From positions 1 through 34,516 of the forward strand of contig JALVVK010000085.1 of the NCBI GenBank assembly GCA_027023445.1: a DNA stretch of 34,516 bases, in the 5' to 3' direction. The notes beneath the pieces were generated by a model, which saw only the letters and a program-made list of their open reading frames with translations, was not told where the DNA came from and searched no databases. Position numbers and translations under genes: made by a program. The DNA is from Deltaproteobacteria bacterium. Lineage in GTDB: Bacteria > Desulfobacterota > Dissulfuribacteria > Dissulfuribacterales > JALVPX01. Numbering within the stretch: the first letter of the stretch is position 1; every line of letters starts with the position of its first letter. This document shows positions 1-32,161 of this stretch, in pieces.

Positions 1-2380
1 CTGCTCCGCCATCCAGGAAGTAGTTAATGCTCCCCACACCCGTGTTATCCTCAGCACTCACCTGCACTGAGAGAAAATCACCCTGTAGGAGTTGAGGCGA
101 AGTTTGCGGCTGGAGCACCGTCAATACAGGTGCCGATGTATCCTGTATCACCGCAAAATCTACCTCGGATTGCCCTACGTTCCCGGCAGCATCTGTAGCT
201 ATGGCAGTGAGGCTATGCTGACCAGGACTTAGATTTGTGGTATCAACAGTGCACGTATATGGCGAAAGGGTTGACTGCGTAAAAGGCTCTGAGGAGCCAT
301 CCAGGTAAAATTCTACACTCTGGATACCTCCGTTATCGTTCACTGTGGCTGTAGCCTTTAGGGGCGTACCCACAATAACGCTCGTAGCGGAGAGCCCTAC
401 CTCTACATCAGGAGGTGAAGTGTCCTGAGAGGCCATGACTATGCCCTGAACTGTTTCCGCTGCGTTCTGCGCAGTATCATATGCCCTGAAGCGAAGTTCA
501 TGACTACTTTGAGGTGTCAGGCCCTTGGTATCAATAGCAAAGACATAGGGATACTGGTTGACCACCGCTTGGACGTGCCCATCAAGCAGATACTCCACCC
601 TGTCAATCCCGTTCTCATCCTGAGCAAGGACAGTGATGTTGAACTGGGCTCCAGGGACCACGGCATTTGTATTGATATTTCCTGGGACAACGAGGTCTAT
701 ATCCGGAGGAGTGGTATCAGGTTCTAAAGGTGACCCCCCTGTCTTGAACTGAACATTCATCCCGGATGCAATTTGATTACCTTCCGTATCGTAGATGTCC
801 GGGGAAACAATTAAGTGGTAGGTGGTATTATAATCTAAGGGATCCCTGTGCTTCAGGGATACGGCCATCTCTCCTGATGGAAGCGTGTTGATTTCGAAAA
901 ACGTGGGAACAATGTTGCCCGCTGCATCCATTAGGATTATTGTGCCTTCGCTGCTACCCGTGCTCAAAGAGGAGGTATCGATAGCCTTGGAGAAAAACAC
1001 TGTTGGGATAGTGTCCACACCAAGATTAGTTGAATTGTTTACCGGTGCCACCCTGACTGCCGCCCTTCCAGAAGGGGCCTCAGTTTCTGCCGGGAAGGAC
1101 CCGACAGGGCATTCCTCATCTCCCATGTGAATAAACAGTTGCAGGTTCTGGGATGCAGCTCCTGTGCAGGATGTGATGTCTCCTGTCACCGATGGAAAGA
1201 CAGTAAAGGCCTGAGACACTGTATCGCCAGGTTGTATATTACCCAGGTCACGCACTACCGCATGGGGACCATTTTGTTCATCGAAGGCCAGGGATTTTCC
1301 AAGGTTGAGCGCCAGGCTCGCATAGTTCGCGGGGATATCGGAGGTATTTGTAATGCTTACCAGGAGTTGGTAGGGTTGTCCTGCGGTCACACGGTCGGGC
1401 TGCTCTACTACTACAGCAAGATGGGGTGGTCCTTTTACCTCGATCGAGGTGGAAGCAGACCCTGAAATTGGAACGGGAGAGGTGAACCCAGGTCCGCTCA
1501 AATTACCTGAAAATTCGAGGTTGATATCGTAGTCACCTATCTTGTCACCACGAACAATCCAGTCTCGGCTGGCCTGCCCTCCTGGTGCGATGTCTCCAAA
1601 TGTATTCTGTCCTGACTGGGGGGAAATATTCGTCACACCTTCTGGCACTGAAATCCTGGCCTTCATATCCTTGAGGAGGAATATTTCGGAGGTGTTCAGC
1701 AGGATAAGCTTTACATTAAAAAATTCCTTGAGCGTTTTTATGGTGCCATCGATAATCAGGATGGCTGGAATGGGTGGCGGGTGGTAGCCGTTTACCTCAC
1801 CCAAATCCAGTTCCAGCAGGTATGCTTGCGGTTGTTCATTCGGCCTTCCTCCCCCTCCTCCACCGTCTTTGGGGAGCTCAATACGTTCTTTATAGGTGCC
1901 CCTATCCTCATTGGATCGAGTCACATAGGTATGTAAGGGGACCTCTTTGTTGCCAACTGTAAATACTATGTCAAATTTGGACACATTGTAGTTGGAAGGG
2001 TCGGTAACGTCTATCACGCCATTGTTTACGAGATCTTTTATCTCATCGGTGGTAAGCCTTTTGCTTTCCGCCCTTGCAACTACCACTTTACTCAGTGATA
2101 CCTGTGTTACCTTTATGGGCGCCGAGGACACCGCATTGCCGCTGGCATCGCGGGCAGTCACGGTGAAGACATTTACCGCGTTCTGTTTAAGCGGCACCGG
2201 GATAGAAAACTGCCCCCCATCTCCGGGGACCGTCCCGCTTTTTGTTACTCCTGCACCGTTTACTTGCACGCTAACATCCGCACGCACAGGCACGGCCGGA
2301 AAGGATATAAAAAAGAGCACCATGACAAAGGACAACCAATATCGCGAGGATCTGCTCATGCGCCTAATCATCCTGCTCAT
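1..2380 (-). CDS. Large secreted protein with Ig-like repeats (partial, C-terminus beyond left edge)
   Basis: The frame starting at ATG 2380 stays open to base 1 (about 793 codons, checked codon by codon), so this is the N-terminal part of a larger protein. Residues 1-35 look like a signal peptide: basic start, hydrophobic core WLSFVMVLFFISFPAV, then a possible cleavage near VRA. A Gly-rich hinge (KDGGGGGRPN) lies near residue 170. Around residues 440-550 a segment beginning APVNNSTNLGVDTIPTVFF fits the SbsA-type bacterial Ig domain. After it come at least three similar Ig-like repeats of about 100 residues with the recurring themes D-NGI--V-Y-LDG and AxDxAGN. The start lies 9 bases after the stop of the upstream giant gene, with a G-run (GGGGG) as a weak ribosome site, so the two are probably co-transcribed. 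Role inferred: exported surface or matrix protein. No catalytic domain is visible in the part present. Confidence 0.85.
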   Translation of the reverse strand, partial: MSRMIRRMSRSSRYWLSFVMVLFFISFPAVPVRADVSVQVNGAGVTKSGTVPGDGGQFSIPVPLKQNAVNVFTVTARDASGNAVSSAPIKVTQVSLSKVVVARAESKRLTTDEIKDLVNNGVIDVTDPSNYNVSKFDIVFTVGNKEVPLHTYVTRSNEDRGTYKERIELPKDGGGGGGRPNEQPQAYLLELDLGEVNGYHPPPIPAILIIDGTIKTLKEFFNVKLILLNTSEIFLLKDMKARISVPEGVTNISPQSGQNTFGDIAPGGQASRDWIVRGDKIGDYDINLEFSGNLSGPGFTSPVPISGSASTSIEVKGPPHLAVVVEQPDRVTAGQPYQLLVSITNTSDIPANYASLALNLGKSLAFDEQNGPHAVVRDLGNIQPGDTVSQAFTVFPSVTGDITSCTGAASQNLQLFIHMGDEECPVGSFPAETEAPSGRAAVRVAPVNNSTNLGVDTIPTVFFSKAIDTSSLSTGSSEGTIILMDAAGNIVPTFFEINTLPSGEMAVSLKHRDPLDYNTTYHLIVSPDIYDTEGNQIASGMNVQFKTGGSPLEPDTTPPDIDLVVPGNINTNAVVPGAQFNITVLAQDENGIDRVEYLLDGHVQAVVNQYPYVFAIDTKGLTPQSSHELRFRAYDTAQNAAETVQGIVMASQDTSPPDVEVGLSATSVIVGTPLKATATVNDNGGIQSVEFYLDGSSEPFTQSTLSPYTCTVDTTNLSPGQHSLTAIATDAAGNVGQSEVDFAVIQDTSAPVLTVLQPQTSPQLLQGDFLSVQVSAEDNTGVGSINYFLDGGA

Positions 2381-2389
2381 CTTAACCCC

Positions 2390-5300
2390 CTATTGAGAAA
2401 CCTCGAATGTTATATCCTGACCAGCAGGAACTTTTACCGAATAATAGCCACTACAGTCGGTATAGACCTCGGTATCAATTTCAGGTATGTATATCCGTGC
2501 TCCTCTAAGCGGTATCAAGGTTTTGCTGTCAACTACCACGCCAGTCAGTGTGGCCTTCGGAGCATCGGCTTGTCTTAGCATTATGGCCCGATTTAGTGGT
2601 GGCTCGCCATCCCGGTCTATGCTAAGCCAGAGTGCTGTGGTCTGGGAATGCGGTGTAATAGTAGCCTCAAAGGCATGGTTCACTACCTCTATATTCCTGC
2701 GTTCACCTGAATCGGTTGTCAGTTTAATGGAGTTCACATTACCGTCTTTCACTATGCCCTTTATATTGACCGAAGAGCCGTCTGCCTTTACCTCTTCCGG
2801 CGAAAATATTATGAGCTGTTTTATCCTGTCCACATCCGGCACGAGTAAAGACTCCGTAATTTCAGGGTCGGGAAGATCAATCTGCTGCCCCTGAAGCACT
2901 ATTCTGCTGCACGGTATTTTTATGTTCCTTAGCAGAAGCTTTCCTCCGGCATCACCTGGTACAGAAATGGAAAAGCTGAATGTGTCTGCCGTATACTGCA
3001 TGGTAACCTCGGGTTCATTTGCAGTGGGTTCGTTTAATGGCTGGTAATCCAGGGTATCGAGTGAGCACAGGTTTACCACCCTTTCAGGCCCGTTAGGTGG
3101 CATTATTGTGACTGTCCTGGTGAATGGGGGAAGCAGCAAATAGTCTCCTTGCCTTAGGGCCTTTTGCGACCCGCCAGGCATTTCTACCAGTACCGGTGCA
3201 TCCACATTTGTCTTACACGGTATAAGCAGGGGTATCCGATGGATTCCTTCCATGTCTCCTACAAGGAGGGAGTTCCCATCAGCACTTATATCCATTGCCA
3301 GGGGGTACTTAAAGGCATAAGGCATCTCAATGACTTCATCCTGACTAATAAGAACATGATAGAATAGTGCCGACTCCAGCACCTGCCTCGGTACCAGGAA
3401 GAGTTTTCCTGTCTGGTTATCAAGGAAATAGAGGTCACCCAGGTCATTGAAGACCAGGTCAGAAAGCATGGCAAAACGGTTATTGGAAGGATTGAATAAA
3501 GGCTCTGGAGGGGAAGTGGAAGAATAGAATATATTGCTGCCGCTTGTAAAATAATAGCTGGATCCCTTCTCAAGAGGGTTCTGTGCAATCCTTGAAAAAG
3601 GTGTTATCAGGTTCTCGTCAGACTTAAATATTGGCTGAGATATATTCCTGTCTGGCCACGGGCCAGGAGGGTTACCCTCTCTCCTGTCCAAAATTGTAAC
3701 TGCCTGCGAGCCCACATCCAGTATGGCTATGGACTCGGGATCGCTCACGCCACATGGGTTAAAAAATCCAAAATGCCCTACATAGATATCAGTGACCTCG
3801 CAGGGGTGAGCAAAAAACCATGTCTGCAGTCCCGGGACATAGCCACCGTACCGTACAGAACCAAGATAAAAGCGATCACCGTGTGAGATATTATCCGCAG
3901 ATGGCTCAAGATTGTAAGGATAGCGGAAACCAAACACCCTTCCTCCAAATCTATCCTCGCTTGCACCGTTGACAGTGTAAAGCCAGCCCTGGCTGTCAAC
4001 GGCAAGGCCTTTTTGATGAGGCTCCTTAAAGAAGGTATCTATTACGGGCTTCCAGCCATCAGGTGTCTTCTCATAGATCTTCCCCGTGGGTCCAAGGCTT
4101 ACATATTCCTTCCCGTGGTAGCGGTCCACGGCAATATCTATGGACGGGAAGTTATTAGCCACAGGATAGACTATGAGAGAAGTTGAACTGAGGCCACTGC
4201 TCTGAAATTGGGTATCATGGAAAACCTCGTAGGCCATATTTAGAGAATCCTGCAGGGCATTCAGCACAAAGCCCCCGGCAGGAAGTCCTGCTGTCAGGGT
4301 ATTCCATACCAAATCACCACCCCAATCAAGCTCAGGCGGCATCACTGCATCTGCGCGTCGGATATGGCTTTGAAAATAGTAGGTGTTAGCCCCTAATGGA
4401 GGGGAATCATCCACATAGACGAGAAGCCCATTCTTAGTCCTCGGGAAGTAACTACTTGGCTTTACCGCTATTCTTTTAGTATGTCCATCTTTATCTTTTC
4501 TATAGATGCTATAGTAAAATCTTGGTACAGTGTTTTGACCATGATCTCCAGGGCTGGGCTTAAAGAGCAAAATAACATTCATGCCCGTGAATGTCTTAAC
4601 AGAAAAGGCTCCCACGATGGAAGGTGCGCGGGGCATGCCAGCCTTTACAATTTCTTCTTTCATTTTTTGAAGCAGGGGCGAATAGATTTGCTGTAACGCA
4701 GACCCTGCAAGCCCGCTTAAAAAGCCTTGTATAAGATCTGCGGAGATTTCCCAATCCCCCATTGACTCTTCCAGCCCCTGTATCGTCAGGAATGCCCTTA
4801 CCTTCTTTACATCCGGCAGCGGCATGGAGGTGTATATACCGAAGTATTTTTCTATTAGGCTATTTTCACGGTTCGCAATAAGCACGCCATAAAGATTATT
4901 CTTAACAAGGTTGTCCCAGCAGAACTTGGCTATCCCTTTGTCCATTCCACTGCTTCCCCCTCCACCATTGTTGTCATCTCCATCTGCAAGCAGAATAGGC
5001 CCGTCCATGTCGCTCGCGGTATCTCTAAATTCCATGCCCAGTTCCGCAACCATGTGAGACGTATTAACAGAGCCGGTGTTTGTGGGGAAAAATTTTCTGT
5101 CCAGATACACAACAAAACTGTTAACAAGAAGGTACATTTGTAGCGGGTTCAGGGTGGTATCCGGGGTGATGCGTGGAGGAGTGTCGGATATAACAGAGCC
5201 CTTGTTAAAGATGGCTACAAACAGGGAATTGCCAGGCGCAGAAGGATCCTGCCAGACTGTGGGAAGAAAATCATTGAAGGCCTTTATCCACTGTGCAAAG

Positions 5301-6946
5301 CTGGGAGGTTTGGGGTCCCAGCCAACGATGCTATTGAAGAGTATCAACGCACTGGTAAGCCGACTCACCTTGCCCTGAATCGCCCAGGCCTCTGCCATGC
5401 GCTCAAGCCCCTTACTGGTAAGGGAGACGATTCCGTCGCCTGTTATCCGGGGGTTGAGTTGATGGCCCTGCTCATCCAGGACCCCCATATCAGTGTCTCC
5501 CACTGCAATTATGGTATTGATTATGCGCTGCTTGGCCTCTTCTATGCCGGGCGGGGGCTCAAGGCTGTTCGCCCCATGGGATATGACACTGTAAATATTG
5601 GCCGAACTGGGATCAGATGGGGGTGCTGCTCTCCTTTCCAGTTTAATGTCAGAAAAAGATAAATCCAGCGTGTCACCGTTTTCCCCGTCGATGTCAAGGA
5701 GGAGTGGGGCAAAATTCTGGGCATTTACAACCAGTTTCTGCTTGCCCGATGGCACATTGTGGAGGGTAAAAACACCATTGGCGTCAGTAGTCACCTTGAT
5801 ATTGATACCATCCAGGCTAACCGAAGCTCCTGTCAGGGGGTTTCCCTGCTCATCCGTAACCCTCCCTGTTATAGTCATTGAACCAGGAAGCACGTTAAAG
5901 CCGACGACGCTGGTTGCTTCCTCTGCACCAGTCACTGCAATGACCCTGCGATCACCGATGGTCGCATCATCGTTTATCCGAATGTGGGCCACAGCACTGC
6001 TGGGAGACTTTACTTCAAGCCCCAGCACGTCAATGCCCTCGCCAAAGGAGACCTGGGTCGTCCCTTGGGAGAAGTGGGTATTGGTACCCTTTATGGCCAC
6101 TTCCAGCACCTGGCCCTGGGTTGAAGCAGAGGGGGCAAGAGAGTTTATGAAAACGGGAGGAGCTGCCTGAGGTTGCCCGCCTGTAGCGCCCGCGTTTACG
6201 GCACCTGAAATGTTCAGCGTCGGGGTATACACAGGACTTGGAGGCTGGTTGATATTGAGGCTCAGGCCTCCACCCTGACCACCTGCAGCAAGGACTGTAA
6301 ATGCCCCAATCTTTGTCAACCTTCTTCTCCCTATGAAGATTGTAAGGTCCCTGGAGCCGAGTTGGGCATCATTGGCAATGGAAATGGCTGCGGTAAGAGT
6401 TGTAGGGCCGGTCACACTTACGCTGTTCACGCTGATTCCTGCGCCGAGATTTACCCTGACCCTTCCAGGCATGAGCCGGATGTTTACTGTGGTTATTTCA
6501 ATATCCAGCGAACCACCCTGGGTCCCTGAGTCAGGCGACAGGCCTGTTATGGCTGGGCTCGGGTAAAGGATAAAAGGCAGGGTATTGGACTGCTCCCCGT
6601 TTACCTCCACCATGACGTCCAGCGTTGTGGGCCGGGTTATGGGAGAGGGCACAACATCAGGGGGCACAGTGAAGAGGAGCTTGTAGAGATCCTCACTTCC
6701 CGTAACCTGGTACACGCGTATTACAGGGGCTGTAACACCGTTTACATAAACGGTATTGTTCTGTGTGGATGTTGTATCCAACCCCTGTCCGGTGATAGTA
6801 ACGGCTGAGCCAATTATTCCCCTGTTAGGAGAAAGGTTAATGATTTTGACTGCAGCCATGGCACCAGAGCAAAAAAATACCAGGACTGCGATAAGGGCGA
6901 GAATCCCCGTGGCACCCTTCACCTTTGCCGATATGTGGGAATCCAT
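2390..6946 (-). CDS. Giant secreted multidomain protein (IPT/TIG, carboxypeptidase-regulatory-like, propeller-like)
   Basis: 1518 residues from ATG 6946. This start has GGAGGG 6 bases upstream; an in-frame TTG at 6961 overlaps that ribosome site and is unlikely. The order is: signal peptide (residues 1-32, core GILALIAVLVFFCSG, ending AMA); three IPT/TIG-like domains (about 33-130, 131-223, 265-355; openings such as INLSPNRGIIGSAVTITGQG); a carboxypeptidase-regulatory-like domain (about 357-430, GRVTDEQGNPLTGASVSLDG); a region of unknown fold (about 450-900) with an Asp/Gly-rich stretch GDDNNGGGGSSG; a region with propeller-like motifs (about 955-1265, e.g. GLAVDSQGWLY, AMDISADGNSLLVGD); and a second carboxypeptidase-regulatory-like segment at the extreme C-terminus. 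No anchor motif (PEP-CTERM, LPXTG, terminal membrane helix) is seen. Secretion and a surface or matrix role are inferred; the precise function is unknown. Confidence 0.88.
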   Translation of the reverse strand: MDSHISAKVKGATGILALIAVLVFFCSGAMAAVKIINLSPNRGIIGSAVTITGQGLDTTSTQNNTVYVNGVTAPVIRVYQVTGSEDLYKLLFTVPPDVVPSPITRPTTLDVMVEVNGEQSNTLPFILYPSPAITGLSPDSGTQGGSLDIEITTVNIRLMPGRVRVNLGAGISVNSVSVTGPTTLTAAISIANDAQLGSRDLTIFIGRRRLTKIGAFTVLAAGGQGGGLSLNINQPPSPVYTPTLNISGAVNAGATGGQPQAAPPVFINSLAPSASTQGQVLEVAIKGTNTHFSQGTTQVSFGEGIDVLGLEVKSPSSAVAHIRINDDATIGDRRVIAVTGAEEATSVVGFNVLPGSMTITGRVTDEQGNPLTGASVSLDGINIKVTTDANGVFTLHNVPSGKQKLVVNAQNFAPLLLDIDGENGDTLDLSFSDIKLERRAAPPSDPSSANIYSVISHGANSLEPPPGIEEAKQRIINTIIAVGDTDMGVLDEQGHQLNPRITGDGIVSLTSKGLERMAEAWAIQGKVSRLTSALILFNSIVGWDPKPPSFAQWIKAFNDFLPTVWQDPSAPGNSLFVAIFNKGSVISDTPPRITPDTTLNPLQMYLLVNSFVVYLDRKFFPTNTGSVNTSHMVAELGMEFRDTASDMDGPILLADGDDNNGGGGSSGMDKGIAKFCWDNLVKNNLYGVLIANRENSLIEKYFGIYTSMPLPDVKKVRAFLTIQGLEESMGDWEISADLIQGFLSGLAGSALQQIYSPLLQKMKEEIVKAGMPRAPSIVGAFSVKTFTGMNVILLFKPSPGDHGQNTVPRFYYSIYRKDKDGHTKRIAVKPSSYFPRTKNGLLVYVDDSPPLGANTYYFQSHIRRADAVMPPELDWGGDLVWNTLTAGLPAGGFVLNALQDSLNMAYEVFHDTQFQSSGLSSTSLIVYPVANNFPSIDIAVDRYHGKEYVSLGPTGKIYEKTPDGWKPVIDTFFKEPHQKGLAVDSQGWLYTVNGASEDRFGGRVFGFRYPYNLEPSADNISHGDRFYLGSVRYGGYVPGLQTWFFAHPCEVTDIYVGHFGFFNPCGVSDPESIAILDVGSQAVTILDRREGNPPGPWPDRNISQPIFKSDENLITPFSRIAQNPLEKGSSYYFTSGSNIFYSSTSPPEPLFNPSNNRFAMLSDLVFNDLGDLYFLDNQTGKLFLVPRQVLESALFYHVLISQDEVIEMPYAFKYPLAMDISADGNSLLVGDMEGIHRIPLLIPCKTNVDAPVLVEMPGGSQKALRQGDYLLLPPFTRTVTIMPPNGPERVVNLCSLDTLDYQPLNEPTANEPEVTMQYTADTFSFSISVPGDAGGKLLLRNIKIPCSRIVLQGQQIDLPDPEITESLLVPDVDRIKQLIIFSPEEVKADGSSVNIKGIVKDGNVNSIKLTTDSGERRNIEVVNHAFEATITPHSQTTALWLSIDRDGEPPLNRAIMLRQADAPKATLTGVVVDSKTLIPLRGARIYIPEIDTEVYTDCSGYYSVKVPAGQDITFEVSQ

Positions 6947-7022
6947 AGCTTTTCCCTCCAACCTCTCGATTTTTTTATCCTTTTTTATATGCGTTAGTGT
7001 TAACTTATTTTTCTGCTGTCGA

Positions 7023-7820
7023 TTATCCTGCAGATTGAGACCAGCGTTCCCTGCCTTTACGTAGAATCCCTAAAAGCCCTACGCCAACAAGGGCTAGTGT
7101 GGAAGGCTCAGGAACTGGCGCAGGGGGCTGGTTTTCGGGTACATCGCCCGTGATTGCAACGGAGCTACCTGAACTGGACATGTTATTTGAGATCCAATAC
7201 CAGCCGCCTGTAAAGTTTTCTGCACTCATATCTACCGGACCGTTATAGACGTAAGTGTTACCATTATCAGTGAATGTGAAATTGTTGAGCTGGGCCTGGC
7301 CGGTAAACCTCAGGTCCTTGATGTAAAGGAGTGGGGCGAGCACCGTCTGGGTGTAGCAAAGGAATGGGTCATTTGCCTGTATAAGGTTTACCAGGCTATC
7401 CCCCGGGCCAATGTTGCTGACATTTTCTCCATCGGTGTAGGTATTGCTGTTGGTGTCATAACTGGTATAGTTCAAGAGTGTTAGGGGATCATAGACGCCA
7501 TCCGGATAGACGTAATTAGGGTTACTTAAAATGAGGTGGTAGTTGGTAGCATAGCTTCCACTGTTATCGCTTGCCAGGGAAAACCACAATTCCCCGTTTA
7601 TAATATCAACTGGCACGGGTAAGCTACCGCTGGATCCGGTGGTATTTACCACGTTGATGTTTCCCCACGATGTGCCAAACCAGTCTGTATATGTATCTAA
7701 GTCAAGGGTCCCAAATTTAAATTCAAGGGCCTTCACGCCAGTGTCAAGGCTCAAAAGCATAATCACTGCCACAAAGAAAATAAAAAAGCCTCCAGATAAC
7801 CTTTTCTTCTTCTGCTGCAT
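7023..7820 (-). CDS. PEP-CTERM sorting domain protein
   Basis: 265 residues. The N-terminus has a basic start (QQKKKR) and a hydrophobic core (FFIFFVAVIMLLSL), consistent with a signal peptide. The body is rich in Asn, Thr, Ser, Asp and Gly, as usual for exported PEP-CTERM proteins. The C-terminus carries VPEPSTLALVGVGLLGIL followed by a basic cluster (RKGRER): Pro-Glu-Pro motif, short membrane helix, Arg/Lys stop. In known systems exosortase recognises and cleaves this tag; no exosortase gene is in the window. After the basic cluster there are about 6 extra residues (WSQSAG). GGAGGT lies 10 bases before ATG 7820. It is the first gene downstream of the sigma-54-like promoter at 8231-8246 and lies 76 bases upstream of the 1518-residue protein. 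The substrate or partner of the mature protein is unknown. Confidence 0.88.
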   Translation of the reverse strand: MQQKKKRLSGGFFIFFVAVIMLLSLDTGVKALEFKFGTLDLDTYTDWFGTSWGNINVVNTTGSSGSLPVPVDIINGELWFSLASDNSGSYATNYHLILSNPNYVYPDGVYDPLTLLNYTSYDTNSNTYTDGENVSNIGPGDSLVNLIQANDPFLCYTQTVLAPLLYIKDLRFTGQAQLNNFTFTDNGNTYVYNGPVDMSAENFTGGWYWISNNMSSSGSSVAITGDVPENQPPAPVPEPSTLALVGVGLLGILRKGRERWSQSAG

Positions 7821-8003
7821 GCTATTTATTACCTCCGTTTGAATTCATGAATACCCCGGATAACTCTGTAGCCATCGGTCCATAGGAGTCTGTCCCGCAA
7901 ATATTTACAGTCGGAGTGATGGTTTGAGGGATCACGGGTTTTGTCTTGATCTGAGGATCACTATTGTGCCTCTTTGCCTTACGTCTTCATGCCTCAAGTT
8001 TAA

Positions 8004-8017
8004 ATTAACATGTTAAT
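8004..8017. promoter_or_regulatory. Perfect 14-base palindrome
   Basis: ATTAACATGTTAAT reads the same on both strands. It lies about 185 bases upstream of the PEP-CTERM start, inside the predicted leader. It could be an operator, but no known regulator motif is recognised; an A+T-rich palindrome of this length can also arise by chance. Confidence 0.35.
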
Positions 8018-8095
8018 ATCATTATGCTATTCCACCAAAAACATCCTGTGAGCAACTAAATGTTTGAGGCTCAGATTCACAGGGCTTAACATCAT

Positions 8096-8148
8096 TTTAT
8101 TGCCACCCAAAAACACTGACCATGTTAGTGGTCTTGGCTGGCAATAAA
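8096..8148. other. Nested hairpin in the PEP-CTERM leader
   Basis: Outer arms are 10 bases and perfect (TTTATTGCCA at 8096-8105, TGGCAATAAA at 8139-8148). Further in, CCAA (8107-8110) can pair with TTGG (8134-8137). The core can form CACTGAC/GTTAGTG with a three-base loop, or alternatively GACCA/TGGTC on the minus strand. There is no T-run after it on either strand, so it does not look like an intrinsic terminator. It lies about 275 bases before the PEP-CTERM start; a role in RNA stability or attenuation is only inferred. Confidence 0.5.
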
Positions 8149-8191
8149 TCCCTTAGCCGACAGGTTTTTAAAGGTATTTGTTTCCATATTT

Positions 8192-8209
8192 TTTTTACCT
8201 TTGTAAAAA
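8192..8209. promoter_or_regulatory. Palindrome just downstream of predicted start site
   Basis: TTTTTAC (8192-8198) and GTAAAAA (8203-8209) are perfect inverted arms around CTTT. The TTTAC/GTAAA half-sites resemble those of the upstream palindromes at 8342 and 8476. Relative to the sigma-54-like promoter it sits at about +11 to +28, where a repressor or a second activator dimer could bind. Function is inferred. Confidence 0.35.
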
Positions 8210-8230
8210 GACTTTGTGAACAGGACCCGA

Positions 8231-8246
8231 TGCAATTTTTTTGCCA
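8231..8246 (-). promoter_or_regulatory. Sigma-54 (-24/-12) promoter candidate for the PEP-CTERM operon
   Basis: The minus strand reads TTGGCAAAAAAATTGCAT across this site. It matches the -24 element (TTGGCA) and the -12 element (TTGCAT) with exactly 10 bases between the invariant GG and GC. Consensus positions missing are the C and G after TGGCA. The start site would be near 8220, giving a leader of about 400 bases before ATG 7820. Palindromes at 8342-8359 and 8476-8507 lie about 130 and 260-280 bases upstream of that point, a usual distance for enhancer-binding activators. rpoN is encoded at 28.7-30.2 kb. RpoN control of PEP-CTERM genes through PrsK/PrsR has been reported in floc-forming betaproteobacteria; here it is inferred from sequence only. 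Confidence 0.6.
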
Positions 8247-8341
8247 AAAAATATTTTGTAATTAGGTGAAATTGCAGGATATTATGTGCTGGATAAATGA
8301 AGGGAAGACTAAAATTTAGAAGAAAAATTCCTACACCTTGA

Positions 8342-8359
8342 AAGGTTTACATAAACCTT
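8342..8359. promoter_or_regulatory. Perfect palindrome, probable activator site 1
   Basis: AAGGTTTACATAAACCTT: two perfect 8-base arms around CA. The core GGTTTA-TG-TAAACC recurs imperfectly at 8479-8493. It is centred about 130 bases upstream of the start predicted from the sigma-54-like promoter. Candidate binders are an NtrC-type activator (none encoded in this window) or the membrane LuxR-type protein encoded next door. Confidence 0.55.
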
Positions 8360-8475
8360 GTCGGGGTGGGAGAGGGTGCTGGTATAGGTAAAGATTTTAT
8401 CTCACTATTATTGTTTAAAATAACCTAAAAGGCATTTTAGGAAGATCAGAGAGGAAAAAAAATTCTCTTTTTAGG

Positions 8476-8507
8476 AAAGGATTTACATAAACCTATTTGT
8501 AAACCTT
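8476..8507. promoter_or_regulatory. Imperfect palindrome plus extra half-site, probable activator site 2
   Basis: The plus strand carries GGATTTACATAAACC (8479-8493), differing from the core of site 1 by one inserted base, followed by a further half-site GTAAACCTT (8499-8507). Half-site spacing is about 11-12 bases, roughly one helical turn, so adjacent dimers could sit on the same DNA face. Function is inferred from similarity to site 1 and position. Confidence 0.5.
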
Positions 8508-8601: not shown

Positions 8602-9963
8602 TTAACCGTTCTGAAGTTTTCTGAAAAGTTCTTTTTTATTTCTGGCGCCTGCCTTTTCATATATCCTGCTGCAGATGGCCTTTACTGTCCCAAGGGCAAT
8701 GCCAAGGTCGGATGAAACCTCTCTTAGCTTTTTCCCTTCGATGAGGAGTAAAAAGACCTCTGTTTCACGTTCAGAAAGCCGCAGTTTTTTGGCAATGCTT
8801 TCCAGGATAAATTTGTCCGAGGGGTGGCTGTCTTCAATCCCGTTTGAAGAACCAGAAACATTATTGTTCGTTATGTCGTCCCTTGTGGAAGGTGGCGGCG
8901 GAAGCGCAAGAGGCGTCTGCTTTTGATCATTACCGTGTCTTTCCATTAAGAAGCGGCAACATAAAATAGCAGGGACAATCATGAGAAACAGGAAAAAGAG
9001 TTGCCATTCTAAACTTTGGGATGAATCCGGACCGAGCCTGGAAAAAAGCAGGGTCCCTGAAAGGATGGACAGGGGGAAAAGTGTAAGGCTCAAGGCAGTT
9101 TCCAGAAGATTTTCAGTCATGGCCAGGATATAGGAAATGGAAAAGACATCCGCCATGCCAAAACCAACCTCTATGAAGAAGAGGGATATATCGGGAAGGT
9201 GAGCCATTTGAAATATTACAGAAAGCCCCATGAGTGGAATTATCATGGCAGGCAAAAAGTCAAAGGCCCAGGGATTTTTTATCAGGGCTAAAATTCCTGC
9301 AACGTATCCGCCTGTACTTATAAGATTAAAATAGGTGAAATCCATCACGGGACCTTGGCTGGTTTCCAGACATGAATAATAAAATCCGCCCAGTAAATAG
9401 AAGGTAAAAAAGAAAAACAGGAAGAATAGCAGGTGCCTTGGTGGTCTAAAGGACAGGTTCTTGATTGAGAAGGTGGCGTCAGGCCTTTTTATTCTCCATG
9501 AGACCAGGCCAAGGGCCAGAAGCATGAGTCCAATGGGATAGGGTAGTCGCTCGAGTATCAAAAGAATCACATTGCCAGAGAGGATGCCAAGTCCCACTGA
9601 GGGGATAAGTCCTTCGATGGCTATATTTTTTGCAAGGATGGCAAGATGGATGAGAAGCACACTAAAGAAAAGGCCCAGAAAGAAGCTTAGAAAAGGATTC
9701 GAGTACCATGCGGAAAATACAAGAAGAATTGATTCAATGGTCCATGAGCGAAGGGCGAATTGGGCAGTCGTTCCCTTTCGAGACCACAAAAATGATGCCA
9801 GGGGGAGGCCTGTCAGATTTCCAATGAGAAAGAACGTGCTCCTCTCTGACGAAATGTCTGGTAACAGTCCCTGCTCAAGAGCTGCACCCAGGAGCAATAT
9901 TGAGGTTAATAGAAATCCCTTGAAAATAGGGGCTGAAAAGTCGGATGTTTTAAAAAAATACAC
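8602..9963 (-). CDS. Membrane-embedded LuxR-family transcriptional regulator (about 12 helices plus HTH)
   Basis: 453 residues. Residues 15-350 contain about 12 strongly hydrophobic segments separated by short polar loops, resembling a major-facilitator-like bundle (e.g. FLLTSILLLGAALEQGLL, LLFFLFFFFTFYLLGGFYY). A polar linker rich in Pro and Asn follows (about 350-385). The last 65 residues are a GerE/LuxR-type helix-turn-helix (LSERETEVFLLLIEG, LGIALGTVKAICSRIYEKAG). There is no receiver or autoinducer-binding domain. Similar membrane-LuxR proteins are known in Actinobacteria such as Eggerthella. The start chosen is GTG 9963, with a weak ribosome site. The nearest downstream gene on the same strand is the PEP-CTERM gene, across palindrome-rich DNA that it might control. 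The sensed ligand is unknown. Confidence 0.85.
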   Translation of the reverse strand: MYFFKTSDFSAPIFKGFLLTSILLLGAALEQGLLPDISSERSTFFLIGNLTGLPLASFLWSRKGTTAQFALRSWTIESILLVFSAWYSNPFLSFFLGLFFSVLLIHLAILAKNIAIEGLIPSVGLGILSGNVILLILERLPYPIGLMLLALGLVSWRIKRPDATFSIKNLSFRPPRHLLFFLFFFFTFYLLGGFYYSCLETSQGPVMDFTYFNLISTGGYVAGILALIKNPWAFDFLPAMIIPLMGLSVIFQMAHLPDISLFFIEVGFGMADVFSISYILAMTENLLETALSLTLFPLSILSGTLLFSRLGPDSSQSLEWQLFFLFLMIVPAILCCRFLMERHGNDQKQTPLALPPPPSTRDDITNNNVSGSSNGIEDSHPSDKFILESIAKKLRLSERETEVFLLLIEGKKLREVSSDLGIALGTVKAICSRIYEKAGARNKKELFRKLQNG

Positions 9964-26782: not shown

Positions 26783-27370
26783 ATGTCCATTAAAATAACC
26801 CAAGTCCTTGAACAGAAATATTTTACCTGGGCCCTGGCCCTGATACTTCTTTCCCTTGTCCTCTGGGTTGGTTATCAGAAGGGGAAACAGGGCAGGGAGG
26901 ATCTGTGGACAGTGGACCTCAGCAGGATCAAGGCGGATCTTGTGCTCACGGGGGTACGCTATACAAGGAGTGAAAACGGGCGGATACGATGGGTGATCAA
27001 TGCTGCTGGTGCCAGATTTTTTGATGAAAAACAGTTGGTTAAACTGGATTGCGTGCGCATGCAGTTTTTTACTTCACAGAACCAAAAGGTGCTTGTGCAG
27101 GCGGATTCCGGTCGTTACGATCTCGCCACGGAAGAGATGTCGGTTAGCGGCCATGTCAAGGTGGTTTCAGAAAAGGGCGATACCCTTTATACAGATACCC
27201 TTCATTTTTCCAATGCAAGGAACCTTATCTGGTCCAGGGACAGGGTGCGGATGAAAGGCGGCGGTATGGAAATCAGGGGAAAAGGCTTTGAGTATTATCT
27301 GGGGCAGGGTAAGTTTATTATAAGAAAACAAAAGACCGTGATACAGGAAGGCGGTAAGATAGGATTGTAA
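26783..27370 (+). CDS. lptC: LPS export protein LptC
   Basis: 195 residues. One N-terminal membrane helix (about residues 14-30, FTWALALILLSLVLWVGY) and a periplasmic beta-jellyroll repeat region (DLVLTGVRYTRSENGRIRW, VLVQADSGRYDLATEEMSVSG, GKGFEYYLGQGKFII), the OstA/LptC fold. LptC links the LptBFG transporter to the periplasmic LptA bridge. Its place between kdsC and lptA supports the assignment; lptF and lptG are not in the window. Confidence 0.88.
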   Translation: MSIKITQVLEQKYFTWALALILLSLVLWVGYQKGKQGREDLWTVDLSRIKADLVLTGVRYTRSENGRIRWVINAAGARFFDEKQLVKLDCVRMQFFTSQNQKVLVQADSGRYDLATEEMSVSGHVKVVSEKGDTLYTDTLHFSNARNLIWSRDRVRMKGGGMEIRGKGFEYYLGQGKFIIRKQKTVIQEGGKIGL

Positions 27371-27396
27371 CCTGTAACAGGAGGAGAAAGAGAGCC

Positions 27397-27942
27397 ATGC
27401 AAGGTTTGTCATCGCAAGCGCCAGCAGCCGACAGCCAGGGCAGATATATATTTTGGTCTGGTTTCCTGTTTGTTCTTTGCCTGATGTTAACAGCTTATGT
27501 AGGCATGGCCCGGGCGGCCCGGAAGCCGTCTCCGAGGGAGCCGGTCAGGATTCAGAGTGACCGCATGGAGACCATTGACAAGAAGGGTAACGTGGTCTTC
27601 AAGGGACACGTGAGAGCTTCGAGGGGGGACCTTGTCATCCATTCCGATGTCCTCAAGGTGTATTACAGGCAGGTTCCGGGCAGGGAGGGCAAAAGATTGA
27701 TAGATAGGCTTGTGGCTGAGGGCAATGTCAAGATCACCAAGGATGAGAGGATGGCCACCGGCAAGAAAGCTGTTTACAACAAGCCGGAAGAAAAAATAAT
27801 ACTTACGGGCAATGCCCAGGTCTGGGACGGACGGAACAGGATCCGGGGCGATAAAATTGTCTTTTTTGTCAACGAAGACAGGAGCATTGTTGAAAGTTCC
27901 GGCTCCCATAAGGTGGAGGCGGTGGTTTATCCTGAAGATTGA
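27397..27942 (+). CDS. lptA: LPS transport periplasmic protein LptA
   Basis: 181 residues. Signal peptide over residues 15-43 (FWSGFLFVLCLMLTAYVGMA, ending ARA). The mature part is an OstA-type beta-jellyroll: PVRIQSDRMETIDKKGNVVF, KGHVRASRGDLVIHSDVLKV, AVYNKPEEKIILTGNAQVWD and GDKIVFFVNEDRSIVESSG. It carries LPS across the periplasm. GGAGGAGAAAG precedes ATG 27397; lptB follows 13 bases after the stop. Confidence 0.92.
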   Translation: MQGLSSQAPAADSQGRYIFWSGFLFVLCLMLTAYVGMARAARKPSPREPVRIQSDRMETIDKKGNVVFKGHVRASRGDLVIHSDVLKVYYRQVPGREGKRLIDRLVAEGNVKITKDERMATGKKAVYNKPEEKIILTGNAQVWDGRNRIRGDKIVFFVNEDRSIVESSGSHKVEAVVYPED

Positions 27943-27955
27943 CCCTGGAGCGGGA

Positions 27956-28678
27956 ATGGCGGAACTTAAGGCCTTTGATCTGGTCAAAAAATACAGGGGC
28001 CGGCGGGTTGTGGATGGTGTCAACCTGGACCTTGCCGATCACAGCATAGTCGGTTTGCTTGGCCCCAACGGAGCGGGTAAGACCACCACGTTTTACATGA
28101 TGGCGGGCCTGATAAGGCCCGACCGGGGCAAGGTGGTGCTGAACGGCGAGGATGTTTCGGTTCTTCCCATGCATAAGCGGGCGCTCAAGGGTATTACCTA
28201 CCTTCCCCAGGAGGCATCTGTGTTCAGGCGGCTTTCTGTTGCGGATAATATCAGGCTGGTTCTGGAAGCAAGGGGTATGCCCAGATATCAGGTGGAGGCC
28301 CGTACGGAGGAGCTTCTGGAACAGATGGGGTTGAGTGATCTTGCCGGTCAGAAGGCCTATTCACTGTCAGGCGGTCAGAGAAGACGGGTGGAGGTAATGA
28401 GGGCTCTCGCCACCAGGCCGGACTTTATACTTCTGGATGAGCCCTTTGCCGGAGTGGACCCCCTGGCGGTGGCGGATCTTCAGGAAATAATTAGAAATTT
28501 GAAGAAGATGGGTATTGGTGTTTTTATATCGGATCATAACGTACGGGAAACCTTGACGGTATGTGACAGGGCCTATATCCTGAATTCAGGCAAGGTAATT
28601 GTGGAAGGCACACCGGAAGAAATATCGCAGAGTGAAACGGCGCGAAAAATTTATTTAGGAGAGGAGTTCGCACTTTGA
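27956..28678 (+). CDS. lptB: LPS export ABC transporter ATP-binding protein LptB
   Basis: 240 residues from ATG 27956 (MAELKAFDLVKKYRGRRVVD), preceded by GGAGCGGGA. A longer frame reaching back into lptA is rejected. Walker A GPNGAGKTT, signature SLSGGQRRRVEVMRAL, Walker B FILLDEPFAGVDP, switch His in ISDHNVRET. These fit LptB, the cytoplasmic ATPase that drives LPS extraction by LptFG. Confidence 0.96.
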   Translation: MAELKAFDLVKKYRGRRVVDGVNLDLADHSIVGLLGPNGAGKTTTFYMMAGLIRPDRGKVVLNGEDVSVLPMHKRALKGITYLPQEASVFRRLSVADNIRLVLEARGMPRYQVEARTEELLEQMGLSDLAGQKAYSLSGGQRRRVEVMRALATRPDFILLDEPFAGVDPLAVADLQEIIRNLKKMGIGVFISDHNVRETLTVCDRAYILNSGKVIVEGTPEEISQSETARKIYLGEEFAL

Positions 28679-28726
28679 TCCATTTGGGTCTGTTTTTGGA
28701 TCTGGTCCTGGATTTTGAAGTATAAT

Positions 28727-30211
28727 ATGGATATCGGACTGAAACAGCAGGTAAAGCTCAGCCAGCAACTGGTAATGACGCCCCAGTTGCAGCAGGCGAT
28801 TAAACTCCTTCAGTTATCCAGGATAGAGCTGATTGACACAATCAATCAGGAGATGGAGGCTAATCCTGTCCTGGAAGAGGCAACCGGAGAGCCTGAATCC
28901 GAGGAAGGGTCTTCCCAGCCCGAAGGCAAGACCGGGGACACGGAATGGAAGGAGGCCGAGGCCTCGGTGCCCGCCCTGTCCTCGTCAGAGCAGGAAAAAA
29001 CCCCATGGGAAGACAAGGCCCTGGAAGAGGTGGACTGGAAGGAGTTCTGGGACGACGAGGCAAAGACACAGATGCCTTCTTATTCCTTTGAAGAAAAAGA
29101 GGGCACAAACTACGAAAATCTCATTACCAGGACAACAAACCTGACCGAGCATCTCATGTGGCAGTTGCAGCTTTCCCGCATGGATGACGAGGAGCGTGGA
29201 ATAGGATGCCTCATTATTGGCAACCTGGACAAGAACGGCTATCTGAAGATATCGGTTGAAGAAATTGCCCGGGAGATTCACTGCGACCCTGAGCGCATTG
29301 AACAGGTTTTGAAGAAAGTCCAGCATTTTGATCCGGTGGGGGTGGCCGCCAGGGACCTGAGGGAGTGCCTGCTGATTCAGGCAGAAATCCTTGGTATAAA
29401 CGATCCGCTGGTAAAGGAAATCATTCAGAACCATCTTCCCCACCTTGAACGCCATAATTATCAGGCGATTGTAAAGGCCACTGGCAGGAGCATGGAGGAT
29501 GTTTCCCATGCCATAGATGTCATCACGGGGCTTGAGCCCAGGCCAGGCCGTTCCTTCAGCACGGACGAGGTACAGTATATTGTCCCTGATATTTACGTTT
29601 ACAAAATGGACAATGAATACGTTGTGTCTCTTAATGATGAGGGCGTGCCCAGGCTGAGGATAAACTCGTATTACAGGGATGCCATCAAGAAGGGTAATGC
29701 CCCGGAGGACGCGAAGGACTTTATCCAGGGAAAGCTGAAAACCGCGGTGTGGCTTATTCGCAGTATCCATCAGCGCCAGAGGACCATTTATAAGGTCACA
29801 AAAAGCATCGTAAAGTTTCAGCGGGAGTTCCTGGACAAGGGTATCACCCACCTCAAGCCCCTGATCCTCCGTGACGTGGCGGAGGACGTGGGTATGCATG
29901 AATCCACCATCAGCAGGGTTACCACCAACAAGTATGTCCACACACCCCAGGGTATCTTTGAACTGAAATTTTTCTTCAGTGTCGGTCTGAAACGGCATAA
30001 CGGCCAGGAGGACGTGGCAACCCAGAGCGTTAAGGAAAAGATCCGCCAGCTCATCCAGGCCGAAGATCCGGTCAAGCCATACAGCGACAAGCAGATAGTG
30101 GATATTCTGGCAAAGGACAATATACGTATTGCGAGGAGAACTGTTGCCAAGTATAGAGATCAGATGGGCATTTTGCCATCCAGTCGCAGAAAACGTCCCA
30201 AATTAAAGTAG
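28727..30211 (+). CDS. rpoN: RNA polymerase sigma-54 factor
   Basis: 494 residues from ATG 28727; an in-frame TTG at 28715 would add four residues. Region I is the activator-interacting domain (GLKQQVKLSQQLVMTPQLQQ, AIKLLQLSRIELIDTI), then an acidic region II (about 45-120), core-binding domain, helix-turn-helix (MHESTISRVTTNKYVHTPQG) and the RpoN box ARRTVAKYRDQMGI near the C-terminus. It recognises -24/-12 promoters and needs an NtrC-type activator. The lptB-rpoN-hpf-ptsN-rapZ order is conserved in many proteobacteria. A -24/-12 match occurs upstream of the PEP-CTERM gene in this window. Confidence 0.97.
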   Translation: MDIGLKQQVKLSQQLVMTPQLQQAIKLLQLSRIELIDTINQEMEANPVLEEATGEPESEEGSSQPEGKTGDTEWKEAEASVPALSSSEQEKTPWEDKALEEVDWKEFWDDEAKTQMPSYSFEEKEGTNYENLITRTTNLTEHLMWQLQLSRMDDEERGIGCLIIGNLDKNGYLKISVEEIAREIHCDPERIEQVLKKVQHFDPVGVAARDLRECLLIQAEILGINDPLVKEIIQNHLPHLERHNYQAIVKATGRSMEDVSHAIDVITGLEPRPGRSFSTDEVQYIVPDIYVYKMDNEYVVSLNDEGVPRLRINSYYRDAIKKGNAPEDAKDFIQGKLKTAVWLIRSIHQRQRTIYKVTKSIVKFQREFLDKGITHLKPLILRDVAEDVGMHESTISRVTTNKYVHTPQGIFELKFFFSVGLKRHNGQEDVATQSVKEKIRQLIQAEDPVKPYSDKQIVDILAKDNIRIARRTVAKYRDQMGILPSSRRKRPKLK

Positions 30212-30276
30212 AAATGGGAATCAGGGTTGCTTGTGACTGATTAGTAAAGATAAATTTTCCCTTGGAGGTTTTTTTT

Positions 30277-30798
30277 ATGCGAATAAGTCTTACCTACAGA
30301 AACGTGGAGTCATCCGATGCGTTAAAGGAGTATGTTGAACAGCGTTTTAAAAAGCTGAAAAAGTATATAGACGGGCCAATGGATGTAAATGTTGTCCTTT
30401 CCGTGGAGAAGTTCAGGCAGACAGCCGAGGTTGTGATGTCAGGAGACGGAATCCGGGCGGCTGCCAAGGAGGTCCAGGAGGACATGCGCGCCGCCATAGA
30501 TCTTGTGTCGGACAAGATTGAAAAGCAGCTCAAGAGGTACAGGGAGAAACTCAGGAACAAACGCACTTCAGGCCAGGCCCCCCACCAGCCGGCAGACGAC
30601 GCCCCTGTCACAACAGAGCCTGAGGAGACGGTCATCCAGGCGGAAAAAATGCAGGCCAAACCTATGTCAGTGGAAGAGGCTGTTGCCCAGCTTCAACTGC
30701 TCGACAGGGATTTCATCGTTTTTCCCAACGCGGACACAAACCAGGTAAACGTGGTTTACTGGCGTAAGGACGGTGCCCTCGGTCTTATAGAGCCTTAG
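30277..30798 (+). CDS. hpf: Ribosome hibernation promoting factor, long form
   Basis: 173 residues from ATG 30277; the in-frame TTG at 30262 overlaps the ribosome site TTGGAGG. N-terminal HPF/RaiA domain (RISLTYRNVESSDALKEYVE to about residue 98) and a C-terminal dimerisation domain (about 115-173, LQLLDRDFIVFPNADTNQVN, ending VVYWRKDGALGLIEP), joined by a Gln/Pro-rich linker. Long HPF makes 100S ribosome dimers in stationary phase. Its stop is 3 bases from ptsN. Confidence 0.94.
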   Translation: MRISLTYRNVESSDALKEYVEQRFKKLKKYIDGPMDVNVVLSVEKFRQTAEVVMSGDGIRAAAKEVQEDMRAAIDLVSDKIEKQLKRYREKLRNKRTSGQAPHQPADDAPVTTEPEETVIQAEKMQAKPMSVEEAVAQLQLLDRDFIVFPNADTNQVNVVYWRKDGALGLIEP

Positions 30799-30801
30799 AC
30801 T

Positions 30802-31263
30802 GTGAAGATCCTTGATTATATCTGTAACGGATGTATTGTTCCCGATCTTACCGCCGAGTCCAAGGATGATGTCCTGGACAAGCTGGCAGAAAGGTTGTCG
30901 GAACATGAGAGTTCCCTGGATCGTTCTGAGGTCTTTCGTGTGCTTAAAGAGAGGGAGCAGCTGGGAAGTACCGGTATAGGAGGCGGCGTGGCCATACCTC
31001 ACGGCAAGATCGAAAGCCTGGATCGGATGATCATAGAGGTTGCACGCAGCAGGGAAGGTGTACCCTTTGAAGCCGTGGACAACCGGCCGGTACATATCAT
31101 TTTTTTGCTTCTTGCCAACAACAACGCGGCTACCCAGTATCTGAAGATTCTGGCCAAAATTTCAAGGCTGCTGAGAGCCCCCGGGGTATATGAAAGGCTT
31201 TTGTCAGCCCCTGATGATGACGCAATCAGACAGATAATAGACGAGGTTGATGGGCAGGGTTAG
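30802..31263 (+). CDS. ptsN: PTS IIA-like nitrogen-regulatory protein
   Basis: 153 residues. PTS EIIA type 2 (Fru/Ntr) fold with phosphorylatable H67 in GGGVAIPHGK. PtsN is usually a regulatory phospho-acceptor and does not transport sugar. GTG start at 30802, 3 bases after the hpf stop. No EI-Ntr or NPr gene is seen in the window, so its phosphate donor must lie elsewhere. Confidence 0.93.
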   Translation: MKILDYICNGCIVPDLTAESKDDVLDKLAERLSEHESSLDRSEVFRVLKEREQLGSTGIGGGVAIPHGKIESLDRMIIEVARSREGVPFEAVDNRPVHIIFLLLANNNAATQYLKILAKISRLLRAPGVYERLLSAPDDDAIRQIIDEVDGQG

Positions 31264-31297
31264 CGAAAATGTTTTGAAAGGGGAATCCGGGGCCGGT

Positions 31298-32161
31298 ATG
31301 GTCCAGGGCGTGGTGATTACCGGCATGTCCGGTTCCGGGAAAAGTACCGCGTTGAAGGCCTTTGAGGACCTTGGCTATTTCTGCGTGGATAACCTGCCCA
31401 TTGTGCTTCTGCCGGAGTTTTTGTCCCTTACCGGTCATACCGGCACCATGCCTCGCAAGGTGGCCATGGTTATGGACGTCAGGGAGGGGACATTCCTGGA
31501 TCAGTTCAGGTCAATTTTTGCCCAGATTCGGGACAGGGGCTATCATCTCGAGGTGCTGTTCCTGGACGCAGGCGATGATGTCCTCGTGAGAAGATTCAGC
31601 CAGACCAGGCGAAGACATCCGCTTTTGCCGGGAGGTAATCTTTCTCAGGGGATAAGCACCGAGCGTGCCCAGTTGAGGGGTCTTCGGGAATATGCCGACA
31701 GGGTTCTGGATACCTCGGATTTTAATGTCCACCAGCTCAGGCAGACCATCCGGAACCTTTATGCCCCCAGGGAGAGGCTGGATCAGATGGTGATTCATCT
31801 TGTCTCCTTTGGTTTTAAATACGGGCTTCCCGCGGACGCAAATATGGTGCTGGACGTCCGTTTCCTTCCAAATCCCTACTTTGAGCCTGATTTAACCCGG
31901 TTGAGCGGCTGCGATGATGCGGTTCAGTCCTATGTCCTGGATCATGAGGATACCCGCGAGTTTTTATCGCGAACCCGGTCCCTGCTGGACTACCTTGTTC
32001 CCAGGTATGAGGCGGAGGGCAAGTCGTACCTGGTTATTGCCGTGGGTTGTACGGGCGGGCGTCACAGGAGCGTTACCATAGTCGAACACCTTAAAAGGCT
32101 GTTTACAGAGGCAGGGCTCAAGGTTATTGTCACCCACAGAGACAGTGACAAGGAAGGATAG
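31298..32161 (+). CDS. rapZ: RNase adapter RapZ
   Basis: 287 residues from ATG 31298, chosen because MVQGVVITGMSGSGKS aligns directly with the E. coli start and length (284). An alternative ATG at 31250 overlaps ptsN and adds 16 residues. Walker A GMSGSGKST, then GYFCVDNLPIVLLPEF, and the C-terminal AVGCTGGRHRSVTIVEHL of the small-RNA-binding domain. In enterobacteria RapZ targets the small RNA GlmZ and controls glucosamine synthesis; outside them the role is less clear, though it commonly travels with ptsN and rpoN as here. Confidence 0.93.
   Translation: MVQGVVITGMSGSGKSTALKAFEDLGYFCVDNLPIVLLPEFLSLTGHTGTMPRKVAMVMDVREGTFLDQFRSIFAQIRDRGYHLEVLFLDAGDDVLVRRFSQTRRRHPLLPGGNLSQGISTERAQLRGLREYADRVLDTSDFNVHQLRQTIRNLYAPRERLDQMVIHLVSFGFKYGLPADANMVLDVRFLPNPYFEPDLTRLSGCDDAVQSYVLDHEDTREFLSRTRSLLDYLVPRYEAEGKSYLVIAVGCTGGRHRSVTIVEHLKRLFTEAGLKVIVTHRDSDKEG

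Follow-up and report, generated by a model that had tools for sequence, protein, structure and literature searches.

A predicted sigma-54 promoter with an operon-specific GGTTTAY element, linked to a transmembrane LuxR-type gene, before a PEP-CTERM operon

Control of PEP-CTERM genes through a PrsR box and sigma-54, including that of the RpoN-dependent gene pepA, has been described previously (PMC1569441; PMC9850573). Haft et al. (2006) reported a 17-nt motif that ends in TTTACA and is followed, after about 63 nt, by a sigma-54 motif, and matched it to PrsR/PrsK/PrsT; many PEP-CTERM upstream regions fell outside this PrsR class, and the authors concluded that further regulators must exist (PMC1569441). 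In Desulfovibrio vulgaris, sigma-54-dependent control of PEP-CTERM genes involves the cytoplasmic two-component bEBPs DVUA0057, DVU0110 and DVU0804, the binding motifs of which were reported as not validated (PMC3333781).

We analysed a stretch of 34,516 nucleotides (the window) from a deltaproteobacterial genome. As in PrsR-box systems, a PEP-CTERM gene is preceded by a long intergenic region that holds a predicted sigma-54 -24/-12 promoter and, further upstream, activator-type sites. Unlike those systems, the window has GGTTTAY repeats rather than the 17-nt TTTACA-ending motif about 63 nt upstream, comes without PrsR or PrsK over cut-off, and ties the promoter to the gene for a transmembrane LuxR-type regulator (TM-LuxR) and to a multi-gene operon that includes giant proteins. 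With D. vulgaris, which belongs to the same phylum and has more than one activator, the locus shares predicted sigma-54-dependent PEP-CTERM control, but the regulator linked to it is TM-LuxR rather than a cytoplasmic two-component bEBP. TM-LuxR resembles the transmembrane transcription regulators (TTRs; PMC10269533) in that a predicted membrane region is joined to a DNA-binding domain and the gene sits beside its likely target, but differs from them in having about 12 membrane helices, a LuxR-type HTH and an apparent sigma-54 promoter as target. The locus is a variation on the known sigma-54 PEP-CTERM promoter, set apart by an operon-specific, TM-LuxR-linked element.

The -24/-12 element and the operon behind it

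The operon, its promoter and the neighbouring regulator gene comprise the following features.

2–2380, minus strand: second giant protein with bacterial Ig domains, truncated where the window and contig end and at least 793 aa long
2390–6961, minus strand: giant secreted protein of 1523 aa with TIG and carboxypeptidase-regulatory-like domains
7023–7820, minus strand: 265-aa PEP-CTERM protein, encoded at the head of the operon (PF07589, 30.0 bits, cut-off 20.7)
8231–8247, minus strand: sigma-54 -24/-12 promoter TTGGCAAAAAAATTGCA, GG at 8245–8244 and GC at 8233–8232, with GG-N10-GC spacing
8602–9963, minus strand: TM-LuxR, about 12 N-terminal membrane helices and a C-terminal GerE/LuxR HTH

A strict sigma-54 pattern matched once in the 781-bp intergenic region that separates TM-LuxR from the PEP-CTERM gene on the minus strand, compared with 0.002 matches expected from dinucleotide shuffles, and the promoter and the upstream palindrome occurred jointly in 0 of 2000 such shuffles. 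A sigma-70 promoter in this region was rejected, as matches were at chance level only. The exact GG-N10-GC spacing is kept 50–70 bp 5′ of the PEP-CTERM start at five other TM-LuxR-linked loci (hereafter module loci), in G021, G023, G025, G037 and G039, which are Thermodesulfobacteriota MAGs of the same order as the window genome. G021 and G023 both have TTGGTAAAGAATTTGCGA, with the start codon 65–69 bp further on, and the promoter reads TTGGCATATTCATTGCT in G025, ACGGCACATTTTATGCT in G037 and TCGGCATCTTCATTGCT in G039, 52–63 bp 5′ of the start. G018 and G044 have a weak box or none, and the G001 contig does not reach its position.

Across the order, sense-strand sigma-54 sites with a score of at least 14 precede 59 of 89 PEP-CTERM genes, mostly 40–100 bp 5′ of the start, compared with 0 of 89 in the antisense control; because some of these genes are mutual orthologs, the independent events are fewer than the counts. 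The survey covered 300 bp upstream of each gene, extended to 800 bp for the gene in the window, and scored sites by a simple weight scheme calibrated on the antisense strand. RpoN is encoded in the window itself (TIGR02395, 470.6 bits, C85:28757–30193). The conserved spacing, the survey counts and the presence of RpoN therefore strongly support, as a prediction, that the -24/-12 element is a genuine sigma-54 promoter, as an earlier note on this DNA had proposed for 8246–8231. RNA polymerase with RpoN would bind 8247–8231 and start near 8220, the position predicted from the element. The rpoN neighbourhood has the canonical order lptC-lptA-lptB-rpoN-hpf-ptsN-rapZ (window 26783–32161, plus strand) and lies 19 kb from the promoter studied.

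The earlier note was also right about the PEP-CTERM gene downstream, and the two giant proteins, which it had assigned to the operon only as a possibility, are supported as members of it: gene order is conserved in G021 and G023, with orthologs of the 1523-aa giant directly 3′ of the PEP-CTERM gene. Identity of the PEP-CTERM protein to its orthologs in these two genomes is 47–48%, and the giants are orthologous among the window, G021 and G023 at 42% and 60% identity, the ortholog of the second giant measuring 2398 aa. A sequence search of named genomes with the 1523-aa protein returned no match.

The GGTTTAY element

Two sites upstream of the promoter make up the element.

8342–8359, minus strand: site B, a perfect fused palindrome AAGGTTTATGTAAACCTT, composed of AAGGTTTA-TG-TAAACCTT
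8477–8507, minus strand: site A, AAGGTTTACAAATAGGTTTATGTAAATCCTT, with the tandem part AAGGTTTACAAATAGGTTTATGTAAATCC at 8507–8479

Upstream palindromes with a GGTTTA-TG-TAAACC core had been described in the earlier note; the one at 8359–8342 is perfect and the second is imperfect, and both turned out to be parts of a conserved composite in which direct GGTTTAY half-sites 11–12 bp apart (site A, at about -250) precede a pair that is either inverted or fused (site B, at about -104). Site A contains two direct half-sites, 12 bp apart in the window and 11 bp apart in relatives: GGTTTAC at 8505–8499, and a second one that runs on into the imperfect palindrome GGTTTATGTAAATC (8493–8480). The intergenic region holds four GGTTTAY half-sites against 0.36 expected, a number matched in 1 of 1000 shuffles, and the 16-bp core of site B has one exact site in the whole 2.24-Mb genome. 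A single perfect palindrome with 8-bp arms was present in 14% of shuffles of this AT-rich DNA and is not significant alone.

Comparison with relatives makes the case for the element, as judged from sequence, much stronger than these window statistics. In relatives, GGTTTACAAAAAGTTTATGTAAA-like tandem sites lie 3′ of the LuxR-type ortholog, and pairs such as ACATAAAC-N7/8-GTTTATG stand 120–150 bp closer to the promoter. The two units that make up site B in relatives are some 18–20 bp apart. The distance from the upstream RTAAAC half of site B to the T of TGGC is 104 bp in the window, 102 bp in G023, 101 bp in G021 and 103 bp in both G025 and G039; in G037 it is 52 bp. Being palindromic and within roughly 80–200 bp upstream of a sigma-54 promoter, site B has the layout of an NtrC-type UAS, and the activator-type sites proposed in the earlier note are supported as a prediction.

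The pattern TTTACANAN{1,2}GNTTAYGDAAA gave five matches in 46 same-order genomes (about 100 Mb), all at TM-LuxR-linked PEP-CTERM loci, and its reversed control gave none in the same genomes; the window copy escapes the pattern by one extra base. GTTTAYRTAAA units were present upstream of 6/6 module promoters compared with 2/57 other PEP-CTERM promoters, and among same-order genomes the composite was found only at TM-LuxR-linked operons. The earlier note had set enrichment upstream of further PEP-CTERM genes as a test; it was absent, which goes against a genome-wide PEP-CTERM regulon and restricts the element to operons of this type. With one exact core site in the window genome and units at so few non-module promoters, the palindrome was rejected as a genome-wide PEP-CTERM operator.

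The element is common to two unrelated types of PEP-CTERM cargo. The window, G021 and G023 have one PEP-CTERM type with the orthologous giants, and G018, G025, G037, G039 and G044 have another, followed by PKD or beta-propeller proteins where the contig allows. Conservation is thus higher in the control element than in its cargo. An extended site A is found in G044 (L198, G044:C62, 3195–3312), where the GGTTTAC half-site is present ten times 3′ of TM-LuxR, mostly at intervals of 11 bp.

TM-LuxR and the candidate readers of the element

TM-LuxR has a GerE domain (PF00196, 37.7 bits), its HTH covering residues 385–453 approximately. Its structural model shows 12 helices and then a 4-helix HTH at low confidence (pLDDT 49), and hydropathy analysis also indicates a membrane protein, so that by prediction it has the make-up of a transmembrane transcription regulator, a membrane region plus a DNA-binding domain. 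Full-length or partial relatives occur in 11 same-order genomes, those with a name being Deltaproteobacteria/Thermodesulfobacteriota MAGs. The gene lies directly 5′ of the PEP-CTERM operon in the window, G001 (the contig of which stops after the GGTTTAY element), G018, G025, G037, G039 and G044. In G021 and G023 it is convergent at the far end of the operon; the linkage has therefore outlived a rearrangement. Between loci, the HTH is 54–65% identical to the window copy and the membrane part 32–40%. A weak relative in G002 is without the element downstream. This neighbouring 12-helix gene, absent from the earlier note, accompanies the element more consistently than any other candidate partner. 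Autoregulation of TM-LuxR through the same element was rejected, as no consistent sites lie upstream of the gene. In G018, a good sigma-54 site, TGGCAATGGTCATGCA, lies 80 bp 5′ of TM-LuxR itself (L072 5810–5795, minus strand), unlike the weak site before the PEP-CTERM gene there.

We favour, as somewhat the more probable explanation, an operon-specific sigma-54 promoter at which the GGTTTAY half-sites are read by the neighbouring TM-LuxR and a separate enhancer-binding protein opens the promoter. Sites A and B would form an operon-specific control element for the PEP-CTERM protein and the two giant secreted proteins, and the membrane-anchored TM-LuxR would read the half-sites and couple an envelope signal to the operon. 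We infer binding by TM-LuxR because no other regulator tracks the GGTTTAY sites and because LuxR/NarL-type domains tolerate both direct and inverted half-site arrangements; the direction of control is likewise inferred. The variable arrangements, direct as well as inverted, with ten half-sites in G044, fit a reader of the LuxR/NarL type better than a dimer of the Fis type. The AAA+ ATPase on which sigma-54 depends is missing from LuxR proteins, and a separate NtrC-type activator would for this reason be required, for which the window genome (G000) offers about 20 candidates, PrsR being excluded. Several points count against this reading: TM-LuxR cannot itself activate sigma-54, the 200 bp around the module promoters yielded no site for a separate activator, the G002 relative is without the element, the sigma-54 box is weak or absent in G018 and G044, and the distance of site B is typical of a bEBP enhancer.

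In the main alternative, less probable and still substantial, a dedicated non-PrsR NtrC-type activator of other DNA specificity uses the GGTTTAY sites as enhancers and TM-LuxR is a passenger or modulator. Sigma-54 requires such a protein, the window genome encodes about 20 bEBPs, and site B, about 103 bp upstream and in relatives a pair of units as described above, resembles the other enhancer classes (-84/-104 and -80). A kinase and bEBP pair even adjoins TM-LuxR in G021 and G023. However, this bEBP occurs across the order, also in genomes that lack TM-LuxR, and in other genomes it lies apart from the module; the one candidate examined was not module-specific and none that is came to light, and ten direct repeats about 11 bp apart are unlike known NtrC-type sites. 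The pair, a histidine kinase with an NtrC-type regulator (L068 849–3748; L069 17587–19496), has orthologs of the regulator in most of the order and is possible but not specific because of this wide distribution; it was rejected as the dedicated activator.

PrsR boxes, GGAAA palindromes and the predicted leader

Control by PrsK/PrsR, the parallel drawn in the earlier note, is very unlikely and was rejected for this operon. Sigma-54 combined with PEP-CTERM is the pattern of Haft et al. (2006), and GGTTTACA has TTTACA in common with the 3′ end of their motif 1 (PMC1569441). However, the window genome, 99% complete, contains no PrsR (TIGR02915, best 425.6 bits compared with a cut-off of 502.6) and no PrsK (TIGR02916, best 106.5 bits compared with 300) over cut-off, so that the search for a PrsR homologue proposed in the earlier note came back empty at that threshold, and the published PrsR box is present in 0/6 module promoters. 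Boxes occur where PrsR is encoded: a PrsR-type box, TGTCGGANNNNTTTACA with up to three mismatches, was detected at 12/57 non-module PEP-CTERM promoters, the clear cases at -77 to -80, and in the order the motif is present at about ten genes, mostly at this distance; the box-bearing genes usually share a contig with a prsR above the TIGR02915 cut-off (G043:C167, G013:C9, G024:C137, G003:C12, G039:C58, G038:C146, G040:C193). A position 77–80 bp before TGGC corresponds to a spacer of 60–63 nt; TGTCGGANNNNTTTACA was equated with the Haft motif by length, 3′ end, spacing and PrsR linkage. Since relatives have the GGTTTAY element only beside a neighbouring TM-LuxR gene, the window operon appears to be run by a switch of its own and not by PrsR. 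Chance matches in AT-rich DNA with no regulatory role, for which the shuffle frequency of one perfect palindrome might speak, are refuted by the comparisons: across a diverged order, as many as nine loci have kept the sequence, the spacing and the gene context.

The commonest PEP-CTERM enhancer in the set is a GGAAA-N4-TTTCC palindrome, found (with N3–7 spacers) at 25/57 non-module sigma-54 promoters compared with 0.5 in shuffles. Its positions cluster at -83/-84 and -104, a separation of two helical turns. Each of the other three PEP-CTERM genes in the window genome (L076, L078, L075) has it, at -104 (C58), -107 (C12) and -105 (C24), and no exact copies lie within 200 bp of the module promoters; the window operon is thus set apart from its sister genes within one genome. 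A literature search found no description of this palindrome, which is not proof of novelty; the enhancer is apparently new to the literature.

The locus may be viewed as one regulon outside the PrsR class with a testable, named regulator, its comparison revealing GGAAA-N4-TTTCC as a second, commoner enhancer. We tentatively suggest a broader scheme, in which TM-LuxR controls the sigma-54 promoter through helically phased GGTTTAY arrays, as one of three enhancer codes (PrsR box, GGAAA-N4-TTTCC and GGTTTAY/TM-LuxR) that sort PEP-CTERM proteins into sigma-54 regulons within one order. It would be unusual for a membrane-tethered LuxR protein to act on a sigma-54 promoter, and such control would tie an envelope signal to surface-layer building.

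With a start near 8220, the predicted leader would be about 400 nt long (7821–8220, minus strand), compared with about 40–60 nt in relatives. Its DNA shows no conservation across the order, its overall folding energy is not unusual (z -1.1), and a riboswitch or other known RNA was rejected after an Rfam search gave nothing near threshold. One hairpin stands out in it.

8096–8148, minus strand: hairpin with 25-bp arms in the predicted leader, no Rfam match

The hairpin overlaps the end of a possible 20-codon open reading frame (8187–8125).
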